DNA from: a virus
Reading direction: 5' to 3' (one strand)
DNA: 64,000 nt
Virus record (IMG/VR): IMGVR_UViG_3300044695_006747
Span: 122,824-186,823 of that record
Below, in pieces: positions 6,771-63,676 of this stretch. The position numbers and the translations under genes were made by a program. Every line of letters begins with the position of its first letter. Position 1 is the first letter of the stretch. The notes beneath the pieces are model-generated. The model saw nothing but the letters and a program-made list of their open reading frames with translations, was not told the DNA's origin and did no database searches.

Positions 6771-7319
6771 TCACTTGACATAGATATACACAGGAATATC
6801 GATCCATATGTCCTCTATTAGATTCTCAATAAAATTCCAATTTCCCCCAGCTAATCCAGAACCAAATTTTGGAGCATGGATTTCATATTTTATATCTTCA
6901 ATATTATTTTTTGATAGAGATAAAATTTTATTTCTAATATCATTCATACAAAAAACCAATGAACCATAATTAAGAGGTCTATGATTTTTTGGATTAATAG
7001 TTCCATTTTGTGCGATCATATTACAAACAATAACTTTTGTTTTTGTCAAATTATTATTTGCTACATTTATATATTGTGTATGACCAAGAACAGACTTATT
7101 GCCAAGAAGATGAAAATTTTCTTTTACTATTGGAAATTTGTCGCCTATGTATTTGGCAAAACCCGCTCCAAATAGATTTATATTATTACAAACATGAGGT
7201 ATGAAAACAGTTGTTGGACTATTAGTTAAGCCAAGCCTGCTAATAGCAGACTCAACAATATCATTTTTTGTATATATAAGCTTATTATTTTGTGTTTTCT
7301 TTTTTGTATAATTAATCAT
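6771..7319 (-). CDS. Macro-domain protein (ADP-ribose-derivative binding or hydrolysis)
   Basis: 182 aa from the ATG that overlaps the previous stop (TGATG); a longer reading would run into the upstream gene, and GGAG is 8 bases before this ATG. VCNNINLFGAGFAKYI is the macro-domain loop that contacts ADP-ribose, LGHTQYINV follows, and APKFGSGLAGGNW is the phosphate loop, as in Poa1p-type ADP-ribose-1''-phosphate phosphatases. Phage macro domains may reverse ADP-ribosylation or remove ADP-ribose products. Strong family call, unknown substrate. Confidence 0.8.
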   Translation of the reverse strand: MINYTKKKTQNNKLIYTKNDIVESAISRLGLTNSPTTVFIPHVCNNINLFGAGFAKYIGDKFPIVKENFHLLGNKSVLGHTQYINVANNNLTKTKVIVCNMIAQNGTINPKNHRPLNYGSLVFCMNDIRNKILSLSKNNIEDIKYEIHAPKFGSGLAGGNWNFIENLIEDIWIDIPVYIYVK

Positions 7320-26455: not shown

Positions 26456-27700
26456 TTAGAATAATTCCTTAATAACTTTTCCACTATTTGCTATCTTCAT
26501 AGGTCGCCCATTTTTAGAGGTAAAAGTAGTCTCAAGAGAAATACCTAAACTACTCAAAACGCTGGCCATTAAATCTTGAGAAGTATAGGGATCGGTAACT
26601 ATCTCTTTTCCATCCTCATTTGTTTCTCCAACAACAACTCCACCCTTAAATCCTGCCCCGCCAACCACCACACTCCAACTTCTGGCCCAATGATCACGAC
26701 CACCATTACCATTAATATTTGGTGTGCGACCAAATTCTCCCATCCAAATAATAGCAGTATCTTGTAGCAGTCCACGATCACTTAAATCTTCCACCAAAGC
26801 ACTCATAGCCTTATCCAACTCTGGAAGTTTTTGATTTTCTAATGTGGCAAAAATACCAGCATGATTATCCCAACCACCCATATCTACTTCTACGAATGGG
26901 ACTCCCATTTCTACTAATCGTCGTGCCATTAAACAACCTCGACCAAAACCAGTGTTACCATATCGTTCTCTAACTTCTGCTGGTTCTTTTGATACTTTGA
27001 ACGCTTCCATCTGTTTGCTAGTCATTAATTTAACTGTTTTATCAAGCACCTTGTTGTGATCTAGTGCTGATCCACCACGAGATTCTTTGATAAACTTATT
27101 TTCGATTGCTGCTAACATTTCTAGTCTTTGAGATAATCTTGATGGATCAATTCCCATATTAAGATCACGAATATTACCATTGCTATCCACAACAAATGGT
27201 GAATAAGTCATACCCAAAAATCCTGGGCCAACACTAGCACCACCAACACTAACAAACGGAGGAATTTCTAGTTCTGGAACTTGATCTATTAATTCGTGAG
27301 ATATAACGCTACCATAACTAGGATAGTCTACTGTTGGACTAGGAACATAACCTGTGTGCATATAATAGCGACCTCTAGTATGGTCAGCCTCTCTTGTACT
27401 CATGCTTCGCACAATACTTAACTTATCCATATTTTTAGCGATCAATGGAAGATGCTCGCAGATTTGAACTCCATCAGCATTAGTATTGATTGGCTTAAAT
27501 GGACCACCTGTTGGTGTTCCGGATTTTAAATCCCAAAGATCAATAGTGCTTGGGCCTCCACCCATCCATAAAAGTATAGCGCTCTTATGTCTTTTCTTTA
27601 GATCAGAAGCATTTGCTAAAATAGTATTGGTAAAATTTGTAGCCGGAATAGTTAGCGATGATGCTGCGGCTAAATGAGATAAGAAATGTCGTCTGTTCAT
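26456..27700 (-). CDS. DUF1501 protein with Tat signal
   Basis: 414 aa. NRRHFLSHLAAASSLTIPA is a twin-arginine-type signal. The rest is a DUF1501 (sulfatase/alkaline-phosphatase-like) protein: WMGGGPSTIDLWDLK at the N-terminus, DHTRGRYYMHTGY, PFVEVDMGGWDNHAGI, and WMGEFGRTPNINGNGGRDHWAR. DUF1501 is extremely common in Planctomycetes. In a phage it is very unusual and suggests acquisition from such a host. Four bases overlap with the VWA gene. Enzymatic role unknown. Confidence 0.88.
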   Translation of the reverse strand: MNRRHFLSHLAAASSLTIPATNFTNTILANASDLKKRHKSAILLWMGGGPSTIDLWDLKSGTPTGGPFKPINTNADGVQICEHLPLIAKNMDKLSIVRSMSTREADHTRGRYYMHTGYVPSPTVDYPSYGSVISHELIDQVPELEIPPFVSVGGASVGPGFLGMTYSPFVVDSNGNIRDLNMGIDPSRLSQRLEMLAAIENKFIKESRGGSALDHNKVLDKTVKLMTSKQMEAFKVSKEPAEVRERYGNTGFGRGCLMARRLVEMGVPFVEVDMGGWDNHAGIFATLENQKLPELDKAMSALVEDLSDRGLLQDTAIIWMGEFGRTPNINGNGGRDHWARSWSVVVGGAGFKGGVVVGETNEDGKEIVTDPYTSQDLMASVLSSLGISLETTFTSKNGRPMKIANSGKVIKELF

Positions 27701-29586
27701 ATTTTATCTATCTTTCTTTGTGGTTTAGGAATTAGTTTTGGTTTGGCTTTATCATCTGATTGATTATTATTACCTCCACCACCATTGTTTGGTTTTGGTG
27801 GCTCCTCATAATCTTCATACCATTTATACGAGATTGGAGTATTAAGTTCTTCATTTGCTATTAATGCCCAAGGAGTATCTGGATAATTGTCTACTACAAA
27901 TCTTAAATATTTTTGAGATCCTTCATAACATTTTTTGAGTAAACTATTATTTAGATCGAAGTCCTTAGATGGCATTAGTATCCATATATTAGATTTTGGA
28001 TCTTTCTTTTTCAAGCCGGTTTTCGCTTCTGCTAAAACCAGATTATAACTCTCTATTCTACATTTTGTAGATAGTATACGCCCCATAGCAAGAGCGTATG
28101 AAACTTTCCATCTATCTTCTAGTGTAGAATATGATGATTCGCCACTTAGTAATGTAGTGTAGATTTGATTAATTTTAGGTTCAAGTTTAGCAGAAAATCT
28201 TTGTGCCATATTTAGTTCATTTACAAAACTACCCTCATCAAATGCTTTGAATCGTAGTGTTTGTTCACCAGAAATATTAAGGGGAATTGATGATGCTTGA
28301 ACTAGTGCTTTTTTACTAGCATGAGACTGTGCTTCTTTATTTTGTATACCATACGATCTATAGTCTGGTCTATACTTAGTCATAATTTCGTGATCAAAAA
28401 ATCTGGAAATGTATGATGATAGTGGGCTAATCTGTTTTTTATCTACTCTAGTATTTCCCCTATTAGGATGCACACTAAAATATAAGCCTCCAGTGTCCAA
28501 ACAAAGTTTCGACAAAGCAAACGGGCCAAACCCACTGTCTAATGTTTCTTTATCAATTGGTAAACTATTAATATCTAAAATCATATCATATAAAGATTCT
28601 GGGCCTTGATTAATTTCTACCCATTTTTCAGTTTGATCGTACTTAGGATCAAATTCCACAAACTTAAATTGTGCTGTATTTTTGCCAAATGGTGCGGGGT
28701 TTCCAACAACATAAATCATAGTCGCTTTCGATCTTGCTAGATTAGATACTACATCTAAATATTGAAAATCATCACCAACTTCGTCTGTAAATACAATCAC
28801 TAATAATCTGGAACCAAAAACGTATTCGGATTTGCATACTTCACCAATAGCAGAGAATGTATTTTCGATTCCGCTTTCATCTAGCACGATTGATTCTACT
28901 GCTGTCTTTAGTGTTGACGGATCATCTGTGAGTTGTCTTGTGATTTTGGTAAATTTTTGCCCAAAACTATAAATTCCATGTTTAATATTATAAGTAGTAT
29001 TAGCAAATTCTAGTTCTTGTAATATCTTTTGAAAACGATCAGCAATTAATTGTCTTTGATGACTCAAACTAACGCTGGCATCTAGTAGCCAAATAACGTT
29101 TGTGTCTTTAGATTCCCCGCTTTTGATAATCTCAACAGTCAATCTGTCCAATGCTCCACCACTAGATGATTGTGATGAAAATCCTGAACCTAAATTTGAA
29201 GAGACTCCAGATAATGTTTGACCAACTAAATCAGACGAAAATTCTGAGCCAACTTCTTCCATAGGTTCAACGGTTAAATTAGAAGGAACATCAATATCAT
29301 TAACAGATATAGATGAATCCTGTTGTTGTTCAACTATTACTTCTTCAGTTAACGAAGAATTTTTATCATCAAATGTGAAAGTTTCTGGAATATTAACAGG
29401 AATCTCAAAATCTACGTTTTCTTCAATGACGCTTGATGATGTTATTGTTAAAGGTTGTTCTGAGTCCAGTGCTTTTCCTATCATTAGTGATAGCAATAAC
29501 AGAGCCATGCTGTTAATCACAAATGCTATACAATAGTGTTCTGTTGTTTCTGAGGATAACATATCCCTAATTTGACGAATCATCAT
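27697..29586 (-). CDS. Membrane-anchored von Willebrand factor A protein
   Basis: 629 aa. One N-terminal membrane anchor (CIAFVINSMALLLLSLMIG, about 18-36) and a low-complexity Glu/Ser/Val linker to about 150. A VWA domain begins at TNVIWLLDASVSLS with the DxSxS of a MIDAS metal site and continues to LLVIVFTDEVGDD. The C-terminal half is helical, and the tail is Pro/Asn/Gly/Lys-rich. Such proteins are common in Planctomycetes. It probably lies in the periplasm and forms an export or adhesion pair with DUF1501. Confidence 0.82.
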   Translation of the reverse strand: MMIRQIRDMLSSETTEHYCIAFVINSMALLLLSLMIGKALDSEQPLTITSSSVIEENVDFEIPVNIPETFTFDDKNSSLTEEVIVEQQQDSSISVNDIDVPSNLTVEPMEEVGSEFSSDLVGQTLSGVSSNLGSGFSSQSSSGGALDRLTVEIIKSGESKDTNVIWLLDASVSLSHQRQLIADRFQKILQELEFANTTYNIKHGIYSFGQKFTKITRQLTDDPSTLKTAVESIVLDESGIENTFSAIGEVCKSEYVFGSRLLVIVFTDEVGDDFQYLDVVSNLARSKATMIYVVGNPAPFGKNTAQFKFVEFDPKYDQTEKWVEINQGPESLYDMILDINSLPIDKETLDSGFGPFALSKLCLDTGGLYFSVHPNRGNTRVDKKQISPLSSYISRFFDHEIMTKYRPDYRSYGIQNKEAQSHASKKALVQASSIPLNISGEQTLRFKAFDEGSFVNELNMAQRFSAKLEPKINQIYTTLLSGESSYSTLEDRWKVSYALAMGRILSTKCRIESYNLVLAEAKTGLKKKDPKSNIWILMPSKDFDLNNSLLKKCYEGSQKYLRFVVDNYPDTPWALIANEELNTPISYKWYEDYEEPPKPNNGGGGNNNQSDDKAKPKLIPKPQRKIDKI

Positions 29587-30042: not shown

Positions 30043-30059
30043 ATTATTCTTTCTTTAAG

Positions 30060-30413
30060 TGGAGGCGGGGGAAGTCGAATCCCCGTCTTGTGATAACTTT
30101 AATATAATCTCTACAAGTTTATTTTGTTCATAAATTTTGAGAAAGATTAAAGAACAAACAACATTCATCTTTCCGTACCAACTAATCTCAGGCTAGAACC
30201 CGTTGGCTATTCTAGCAGCCGAAGGATTTTACGACAATCTTTTGAACGCTACCTTCATCGCTTTCTAAGATTGTTGCTGTTATTTAATTAAGCAGCAAGG
30301 GCTAACTGATTTGTGCCAGTTAAAGCATTTGGTAGATTTTTAAAGTGGCCTTTCCACCAACCACTACTTGCTAATTATACCAAATTTTATCCAATCGATA
30401 CCGTTACGCCCCC
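30060..30413 (-). ncRNA. ssrA: tmRNA (transfer-messenger RNA)
   Basis: 354 nt. The tRNA-like ends pair as GGGGGCG/CGCCTCC with discriminator A, and the T arm is GGGGA-TTCGACT-TCCCC. The tag reading frame at 30329-30288 encodes NALTGTNQLALAA then TAA, with the protease-tag ending LALAA. No CCA is encoded. tmRNA frees stalled ribosomes and tags the nascent chain. It is rare in phages. No SmpB gene is visible, so host SmpB is presumably used. Promoter at 30425-30452. Confidence 0.9.
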
Positions 30414-30616
30414 TAATCTTTATTATTATACACAAAATCCTTATTTTGTAAAGTCTCTAGTTTGAGATAGAGATATTCAAAAAATACTCTATACATCATC
30501 TTCTCTTTTTCTAGAAGTTTGATTTCCTCATATTGTAAAATATTAAACCCAATTGATATTGATAACAAACCAATTATGAAAGTATAATACGGTAGGTGTT
30601 TTGAGCGATTAGTCAT
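30413..30616 (-). CDS. Possible small membrane protein over the tmRNA promoter
   Basis: 67 aa with one membrane segment (YTFIIGLLSISIGFNIL) and a charged helix. Its stop ends on the first base of the tmRNA, and its 3' part overlaps the tmRNA promoter. Composition is coding-like, but the position makes it doubtful. Confidence 0.4.
   Translation of the reverse strand: MTNRSKHLPYYTFIIGLLSISIGFNILQYEEIKLLEKEKMMYRVFFEYLYLKLETLQNKDFVYNNKD
30425..30452 (-). promoter_or_regulatory. Promoter of tmRNA
   Basis: Minus strand TTTACA-N16-TATAAT with TGTG before the -10 box, 12 bases before the predicted tmRNA 5' end. Confidence 0.7.
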
Positions 30617-30689
30617 ATAATATTTACTTGTCTTGAATCGAATATGGTGTATGATACTTTATCAAAGTTATAACAAGGAGATTCGGCTT

Positions 30690-31199
30690 ATGAGTCAATG
30701 CGTCAACTGTTTCAAAGAAACAAATAATCCAAAGTTTTGTTCCAGATCATGCGGTGTGTCATACAATAATCGAATAAAGCCTAAAAGAATTGCAACAAAA
30801 AAATATTTTAAGTGTTTATATTGTAAGAAGAAAACTCAATTTTATACTAATAATCCAAGAAAATATTGTTCAAAAAGTTGTAGGATAATACATAATAGAA
30901 ATACTTCAGACAGTCTCATAGAAGTGAATGGGTTTGGCAGTGGTCATTATCATAATGCAACAATCAGAAAATATTTGATAAGAAAACATGGGAATAACTG
31001 TATGATCTGCGGACAATCTGGAGACAATTGGAATGGTAAACCTATTACGCTTATTGTGGATCATATTGATGGAAAGTCCAACAATAATATGCTTGATAAT
31101 CTCCGTATTGTTTGTCCAAACTGCGATTGTCAATTGCCTACTTATAAGGCTAAAAACAAAGGCAACAGTTCTAGATCATATTTTATAGTTCAAAAATAA
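30690..31199 (+). CDS. HNH endonuclease with zinc knuckles
   Basis: 169 aa on the plus strand, started at the ATG after AAGGAG. Two Cys-rich knuckles come first (CVNCFKETNNPKFCSRSC and CLYCKKKTQFYTNNPRKYCSKSC), then the HNH core: NCMICGQSGDNW, LIVDHIDGKSNNNMLDNLRIVCPNCD. It sits exactly between tmRNA and the intron-split tRNA, facing the tRNA, as a mobile homing gene would. A plus-strand TTGTCT-N16-TATGAT lies near 30630. Confidence 0.85.
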   Translation: MSQCVNCFKETNNPKFCSRSCGVSYNNRIKPKRIATKKYFKCLYCKKKTQFYTNNPRKYCSKSCRIIHNRNTSDSLIEVNGFGSGHYHNATIRKYLIRKHGNNCMICGQSGDNWNGKPITLIVDHIDGKSNNNMLDNLRIVCPNCDCQLPTYKAKNKGNSSRSYFIVQK

Positions 31200-31200
31200 A

Positions 31201-31472
31201 TAGCGCGTGTTGGAGTCGAACCAACCTTTTGAATACCTTATCTTACCACTATAACTTTCGTTACCCAAATGGTTTGTGGTCTGGACTTTATCTTTACCAT
31301 AACTTTAGTTTTAGGTACTGCCTGTCAAGTCTCTACACCTTACTATTTAATAGTCTTGGCTCGGTATTAGCATTTTAAAGCCTTCACCGAATTTAAGCAG
31401 TTCTACTCTACTGGTTTCCCAGTAGGCACTCATAATTTTAAGAGTATGTGCAACTACCGGCTGCAACGCGCC
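31201..31472 (-). tRNA. tRNA interrupted by a group I intron (anticodon probably UAU)
   Basis: Exon 1 (31472-31440) has acceptor GGCGCGT, D arm and ATACTCTT; exon 2 (31241-31201) has ATAAGGTAT, T arm GTTGG-TTCGACT-CCAAC and acceptor ACGCGCT plus A. The simplest splice gives stem ATACT/GGTAT with loop CTTATAA, anticodon UAU (Ile). The variable loop is short, so Leu is unlikely. The D arm is a little irregular and the splice points are not certain. Confidence 0.75.
31242..31439 (-). mobile_element. Group I intron
   Basis: 198 nt. The core elements are clear: P-like AATTCGGTGAAG, Q AATACCGAGCCAAG (31368-31355), R TGTAGAGACTTGACAGG (about 31338-31322) and S AAGATAAAGTCC (31294-31283), in the usual order. 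The intron begins AAAATTATGAG and ends in G. No ORF lies inside; the HNH gene next door could be its mobility enzyme. Position after U34 matches that of introns in cyanobacterial tRNA-Leu. Confidence 0.88.
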
Positions 31473-31503: not shown

Positions 31504-31532
31504 ATTATACCTTATCGACCAATCCCTGTCAA
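31504..31532 (-). promoter_or_regulatory. Promoter of the intron-containing tRNA
   Basis: Minus strand TTGACA-N17-TATAAT with TCGATA in the spacer, 32 bases before the tRNA. It overlaps the last codon of the TrmH-like gene. Confidence 0.78.
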
Positions 31533-32074
31533 CCCTTGAGAAATTTTTCGTAATAGTGGCGATAAAAACCCATAATTATGCCACTAGTTGTTCCAACATT
31601 TAAAGACCTAACACTTCCATAAGTAGGAATAGTTAAAACACAACTACAAGCCATAAGAATCTTTTCTGATAAACCAGCATTTTCTTCTCCAAAAATAAAA
31701 ATTGGTTCATCAACATTGGAGAAATCAAAATTAAAAGGATCGAATGTAATATCTTTGTATTCTGGAATATTATTTTCAATAGCAATTAATGTACGACCAC
31801 TTGACGAATGTGATTTAATAAAATCTTCTTCAGTTTTATGATGATACATTGGGGTATAGTGGTGGGTTCCTACACTACCTCTTTTATCCCATTTCTTTTT
31901 GCCTACATAATGAACGCTACGAAATCCAAAAAAATTAGCATTACGAACCATAGTGCTAAGATTAAAATCTCCACTGATATTAATCATTGCAACACTAGCG
32001 GGAATACTTTTATCCTGACAATATTTGGCAATATCTGGTATAGCCAAGTCTTTCAAACTATCAAGCACGTTCAT
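31529..32074 (-). CDS. SpoU/TrmH-family RNA 2'-O-methyltransferase-like
   Basis: 181 aa. Motif 1 NLSTMVRNANFFGFRSVHYVG (N and R of SPOUT 1), motif 2 FIFGEENAGLSEKIL, motif 3 LTIPTYGSVRSLNVGTTSGIIMGFY: all three SpoU motifs with the SAM knot. Lacks extra RNA-binding domains. Probably methylates a tRNA or rRNA ribose. Last in its operon, next to the intron-split tRNA. Confidence 0.88.
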   Translation of the reverse strand: MNVLDSLKDLAIPDIAKYCQDKSIPASVAMINISGDFNLSTMVRNANFFGFRSVHYVGKKKWDKRGSVGTHHYTPMYHHKTEEDFIKSHSSSGRTLIAIENNIPEYKDITFDPFNFDFSNVDEPIFIFGEENAGLSEKILMACSCVLTIPTYGSVRSLNVGTTSGIIMGFYRHYYEKFLKG

Positions 32075-63538: not shown

Positions 63539-63573
63539 GAGTATTAAAATACCGGCTGTTAATAGATCGACTT

Positions 63574-63649
63574 AGTGGATAGATGGATTCGAACCATCAA
63601 CTCCTCTTGTATTTAAACAAGTGGAACTCTACCTTTGAGTTATACCCAC
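63574..63649 (-). tRNA. tRNA-like gene with extended anticodon arm
   Basis: 76 nt. Acceptor GTGGGTA/TATCCAC, D arm ACTC/GAGT, T arm GATGG-TTCGAAT-CCATC. The anticodon stem is CTTG/CAAG inside CCA/AGG, with an 8-base loop TTTAAATA (or a 6-base loop TTAAAT). The expected length between D arm and T arm is exceeded by four bases. Anticodon not assignable; UAA or AAA are candidates. Confidence 0.55.
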
Positions 63650-63676
63650 CGATAGTTTTACAAATAATGTCCGGTA

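Follow-up and report, generated by a model that had tools for sequence, protein, structure and literature searches.

A phage tRNA-Ile(UAU) gene with a putative group I intron after U34, abutting a convergent HNH gene

We analyzed 64,000 nucleotides (the window; positions 122,824 to 186,823) of a 186,823-base IMG/VR virus record, IMGVR_UViG_3300044695_006747, which we read as a phage, that is, a large bacterial virus. A split tRNA gene occupies 31472–31201 on the minus strand, exactly the extent that an earlier note on this DNA had given. The features at the locus, in window coordinates, are:

30057–30413, minus strand: tmRNA
30413–30616, minus strand: small ORF, directly 3′ of the tRNA in relatives without the HNH gene
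30690–31199, plus strand: HNH gene from an ATG start, within a longer ORF from TTG 30633
31201–31241, minus strand: 3′ exon of tRNA-Ile(UAU), A35 and U36 to discriminator A73 (ARAGORN on joined exons)
31242–31439, minus strand: group I intron of 198 nt, ORF-less and IC3-like (RF00028, empty sites, helix covariation)
31432–31435, minus strand: guide sequence UUAU, immediately 5′ of GAG, forming P10 with 3′ exon AUAA (31241–31238)
31440–31442, minus strand: P1 exon strand CUU, pairing with GAG 31431–31429 (from the alignment)
31440–31472, minus strand: 5′ exon of tRNA-Ile(UAU), comprising acceptor strand, D arm, and anticodon stem, to U34 (ARAGORN on joined exons)
31504–31532, minus strand: sigma-70 promoter TTGACA-17-TATAAT, directed toward the tRNA and matching the consensus at all 12 positions
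31529–32074, minus strand: gene for a SpoU-family RNA methylase, 5′ of the tRNA (PF00588, E = 4.5e-24)

Most related loci retain the promoter 5′ of the tRNA, and the 5′ exon has a near-identical sequence in intronless relatives; CCA is absent from the encoded 3′ exon. The HNH gene and the tRNA converge, the stop codon of the former ending at 31199 and the last tRNA base lying at 31201; the HNH gene is located outside the intron, so that its ORF is not intron-encoded. The HNH gene and tmRNA that had been noticed here were recovered by PHROG 1271 (E = 6e-22) and by RF00023 (117.5 bits), respectively. The Pfam HNH_3 match (E = 0.0015) is below the cut-off, and the protein has two N-terminal cysteine-rich, zinc-finger-like motifs. 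ARAGORN missed the tmRNA at 30057–30413 that RF00023 detects; its tag reading frame ends ...ALTGTNQLALAA.

A local Rfam search returned a match to the group I intron model RF00028 at 31451–31264 (minus strand), covering the whole model (1–253) at 58.7 bits (gathering score, 50), and this is the single match in the entire virus record. A fast Rfam scan of the whole window did not detect the intron, and ARAGORN called no tRNA in the unspliced DNA of this gene, intron options included. With the exons joined, ARAGORN returned tRNA-Ile(tat).

Natural empty sites are the strongest evidence for the predicted splice sites. Another 12 viral loci contain the 29-nt junction GCACATACTCTT/ATAAGGTATTCAAAAGG without a break, the two halves meeting precisely where splicing is predicted to join them. 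In most of these loci the tRNA immediately follows the same SpoU gene, which had served as bait for related loci (53 relatives). The exact 24-nt pattern of the 5′ exon had zero matches in IMG/VR because the relatives differ at base 3. L031 has a matching kind of tRNA body and is intronless. Compared with another related locus (L004), the window carries two separate insertions, the intron and an HNH block, and its exons differ from the L004 tRNA at only four bases, all of them in two doubly compensated pairs, namely acceptor pair 3–70 and one T-stem pair. Because these exon changes are doubly compensated, selection seems to be maintaining the fold of the interrupted tRNA. The earlier note had proposed a fold with RF00028 and had described a tRNA interrupted by a group I intron, inserted after U34 as in tRNA-Leu(UAA) introns, with UAU as the spliced anticodon. 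The above-threshold RF00028 score, the empty sites, and the joined tRNA agree with this description in full.

The intron extends from 31439 (5′ end) to 31242 (3′ end), where its terminal base is the omega-G. The U.G pair of the 5′ splice site is formed by U34 (31440) and G31431, and the CUU/GAG pairing of P1 is invariant across 29 related introns. P10 has four pairs in all three tRNA-Ile introns and pairs in 70.7% of cells overall among the 29, the pair at tRNA position 36 following the anticodon (UA in 24, AU in four, and GU in one). The named structure is paired in 95.4% of cells, compared with 80.1% after shuffling and at most 45% after sliding, the shuffle counts not being probabilities, as the sequences are related; 32 pairs are altered on both sides. 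The P3, P4, P6, P7, and P8 core is present, with the P7 pseudoknot. Covariation occurs in P2, P3, P5, P8, and P9, P4 and P7 are invariant, and compensated changes in P3 separate the Ile from the Leu introns. P1, P10, and the core helices are thus supported by conservation or covariation in the alignment.

Two other readings of the gene were weighed against this structure. P1 consists of just three pairs followed by a U.U mismatch, as might be expected if the intron had decayed and the tRNA were a dead gene. We consider this very unlikely in view of the complete P1–P10 core with its GAAA loops, the omega-G, the perfect promoter, and the doubly compensated exon changes. That ARAGORN alone misses the gene would also fit a chance match or a tRNA intron spliced by proteins (bulge-helix-bulge), with no ribozyme involved. 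The RF00028 score, the conservation of the P3–P8 core in 29 relatives, and the natural empty sites all oppose such a reading, which we regard as hardly credible, the group I core and its covariation being decisive against it.

Our preferred explanation, with a probability of roughly 0.88, is a working phage tRNA-Ile(UAU) gene that carries, after U34, a self-splicing intron of group I and of the tRNA-Leu(UAA) lineage (IC3-like), which we infer to be spliced in vivo. The pre-tRNA would be transcribed from its own strong promoter, the intron would fold, and guanosine would attack after U34 at the P1 U.G pair. P10 would hold the 3′ exon AUAA, the joining of which to U34 would restore the UAU anticodon. 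Maturation by host RNase P and the CCA-adding enzyme would follow, yielding a tRNA that can read AUA with no lysidine. The intron probably arrived from a related U34 tRNA, its guide sequence now fitting U36, and the neighboring HNH protein would be a separate, free-standing homing endonuclease of tRNA-Ile(UAU) genes.

In 35 long ORFs of the window, AUA accounts for 25 per 1000 codons and for one-third of those that encode Ile. In bacteria, isoleucyl-tRNA synthetases normally encounter tRNAs with GAU or lysidine-CAU anticodons, and we assume that a UAU tRNA is charged in this host. No TilS-like lysidine synthetase gene (PF01171) was found in the phage record, and bacteria generally decode AUA via a lysidine-modified CAU tRNA (PMC11938285). 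A UAU anticodon, if the tRNA is charged and decodes as expected, would let the phage read AUA without the host lysidine synthetase. The Azoarcus tRNA-Ile(CAU) intron, by its description, is likewise a group I intron in a bacterial tRNA-Ile gene that reads AUA, but its tRNA has a CAU anticodon requiring lysidine instead of the UAU seen here. Taniguchi, as cited in PMC11938285, is said to have described, in 2013, a Mycoplasma mobile tRNA-Ile(UAU) with a UAU anticodon for AUA; that tRNA has the same anticodon as the one in the window, is cellular and, to our knowledge, has no intron.

The classic tRNA-Leu(UAA) introns outside phages are small, lie after U34, have a CUU/GAG P1 with a U.G pair, and end in a terminal G. 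By description, the window intron has the insertion site, P1, and terminal G in common with them, but it differs in its host tRNA-Ile(UAU), in a guide A rather than U facing position 36, and in being phage-borne. By sequence, the intron is clearly related to the tRNA-Leu(UAA) introns in the unrooted tree described below, the label IC3-like denoting likeness to tRNA introns. The nearest named matches are the tRNA-Leu(UAA) introns of the huge phage LR756501 (80.6% identity over about 170 nt) and of Agrobacterium phage Atu_ph07. Compared with these and with the phage tRNA-Leu(UAA) introns in IMG/VR, the window intron is alike in core and site and differs in isoacceptor and in P10 partner.

A pattern scan of IMG/VR for similar introns gave at least 120 matches, some of the intron-bearing contigs possibly being cellular contamination. 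Together with Atu_ph07 and LR756501, this makes the earlier note's description of such tRNA introns as very uncommon in phages too strong. Among the matches listed, most of those with readable exons are tRNA-Leu(UAA) introns. Across every intron whose exons could be read, at least 71 entries splice to tRNA-Leu(taa); Lys(ttt) occurs twice, and Arg(tct), Thr(tgt), Glu(ttc), and Ser(tga) once each. These six lie on IMG/VR contigs (L094, L127, L172, L166, L076, and L104), after U34 of Arg(UCU), Thr(UGU), Lys(UUU), Glu(UUC), and Ser(UGA) tRNAs, and in most of them the guide bases pair with anticodon positions 35 and 36. Introns in tRNA-Ile(UAU) were found in three cases, all on viral contigs (the window, L179, and L143), tRNA-Ile(UAU) as host gene being the rarer part of the find. 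Several entries, L157 and L151 among them, were dropped as their automatic exon assignments were wrong or doubtful.

In a tree of 60 introns (51 of them Leu rows; unrooted, with unsettled bootstrap values, no cellular introns, and L166 entered with an uncorrected start), the three Ile introns cluster together (99/92) beside a Glu and a Lys intron, amid mostly Leu introns. Opposite position 36, all three Ile introns have a guide A and 50 of 51 distinct Leu introns a guide U, the sole Leu exception (L087) being a doubtful automatic assignment. The guide A of the window intron therefore pairs with U36 of tRNA-Ile. A Leu-to-Ile direction of transfer is likely on this comparison. With the same pattern, no true tRNA-Ile(UAU) intron was found in cellular genomes; the sole match there, in an Emcibacteraceae MAG (L180), was rejected because it has no tRNA halves and resembles coding DNA, and four matches to a broader viral pattern (L181–L184) were rejected as resembling coding DNA. 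A similar intron core also lies between two annotated capsid-protein pieces of Pelagibacter phage HTVC120P (19655–19799), whose capsid gene probably carries an intron.

The HNH protein has 28 viral relatives. In 43 locus entries besides the window and L179 (some contigs being counted twice), an HNH gene or its remnant stands beside a tRNA-Ile(tat) that ARAGORN reads as intronless, and the HNH-flanked tRNA-Ile(UAU) genes represent at least eight tRNA bodies in several genomic settings. Among 33 intronless tRNA-Ile loci, HNH is present in 10, a remnant in two, and neither in 21. The closest HNH (L185, 96% identity) adjoins a different tRNA, which is intronless, and the block of 90% identity between that locus and the window (30602–31222) stops short of the intron. 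L179 has the intron and an abutting HNH, as in the window; L143 has the intron and no HNH match in the stretch examined. Because of the intronless hosts, the L185 HNH, and the HNH-free L143, the gene seems to be tied primarily to tRNA-Ile(UAU) genes, and its product looks like a free-standing homing endonuclease, for which cleavage and homing are predicted. Comparison of related phages with and without the intron and HNH gene, as had been proposed, thus bore out the junction, at which intronless alleles are joined, and did not couple HNH presence to the intron; the suggestion that HNH is the mobility enzyme of the intron is weakened, since the gene accompanies tRNA-Ile(UAU) genes with or without it. 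In two entries (L041/L042, near 7002–7094), only the C-terminal 31 HNH residues match, beside tRNA-Ile(UAU), probably as a decayed copy.

The HNH gene may or may not help the intron to spread. In one scenario the enzyme would act in trans for the intron, cutting intronless tRNA-Ile(UAU) at the anticodon loop, with repair then copying the intron; such collaborative homing has already been described (PMC2988022). The combination of intron and abutting HNH in both the window and L179 is consistent with this, as is a tRNA-Leu intron of a 595-kb phage (LR756511.1, 407217–411328; L057) that appears to contain an HNH ORF. Collaborative homing also keeps some standing because, in the tRNA-Leu genes that hold introns L054, L061, L115, and L173, a convergent HNH motif lies close to the 3′ end of the tRNA. 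We nevertheless consider the scenario unlikely: the 43 entries pair HNH with intronless tRNA-Ile(UAU), the closest HNH and its block of identity go with a different, intronless tRNA, L143 does without HNH, and an HNH-like motif lies within 1.2 kb of only 14 of 60 distinct introns.

A second scenario, which we put a little short of even odds, is that HNH moves or swaps tRNA-Ile(UAU) as a tRNA-plus-HNH cassette, similar to T4 SegB, with the intron as an unrelated passenger. It concerns the HNH gene only and is therefore compatible with the working, intron-split tRNA-Ile(UAU) favored above. The same tRNA body plus HNH occurs in different surroundings (L185 compared with L191 and L194; SpoU loci compared with L198), the eight or more tRNA bodies beside HNH point the same way, and the alignment of L185 with L191 covers only the cassette, suggesting a mobile unit. 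However, several sets have only HNH and the tRNA 3′ end in common, and between L004 and the window the HNH block is inserted 3′ of an otherwise conserved tRNA, with no tRNA swap. T4 SegB is likewise encoded by a free-standing endonuclease gene beside phage tRNA genes (PMC2988022), but it is a GIY-YIG enzyme in a tRNA cluster, whereas the window enzyme is an HNH protein abutting the 3′ end of one isoacceptor. HNH lies at the 3′ end of varied tRNA-Ile(UAU) bodies in different settings in L185, L191, L194, L198, L209, and others.

More broadly, we put forward as a tentative idea, on the doubtful side, that a phage intron lineage hops among U34 tRNAs (Leu, Ile, Arg, Thr, Lys, Glu, and Ser), entering after U34, its guide bases adapting to positions 35 and 36, aided in trans by free-standing HNH enzymes at tRNA 3′ ends. 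The locus, with its empty sites and HNH neighbor, suggests how this intron class may move between tRNAs through a guide change, and it offers a testable case for collaborative homing. The intron class and insertion position were already known; the host tRNA, phage setting, guide-sequence change, and HNH arrangement are new. According to a 2014 review, all phage group I introns then known were in protein genes, despite the many phage tRNA genes (PMC3984707), and we found no description of group I introns in phage tRNA genes in the openly accessible literature, which is weak evidence of absence.

Elsewhere in the window, a tRNA-like gene with an anticodon ambiguous to ARAGORN lies at 63573–63650. 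Genes for a DUF1501 protein (E = 3e-106) and a VWA protein are adjacent at 26456–29586; genes of these types are common in planctomycetes, the pair hinting at a planctomycete host.
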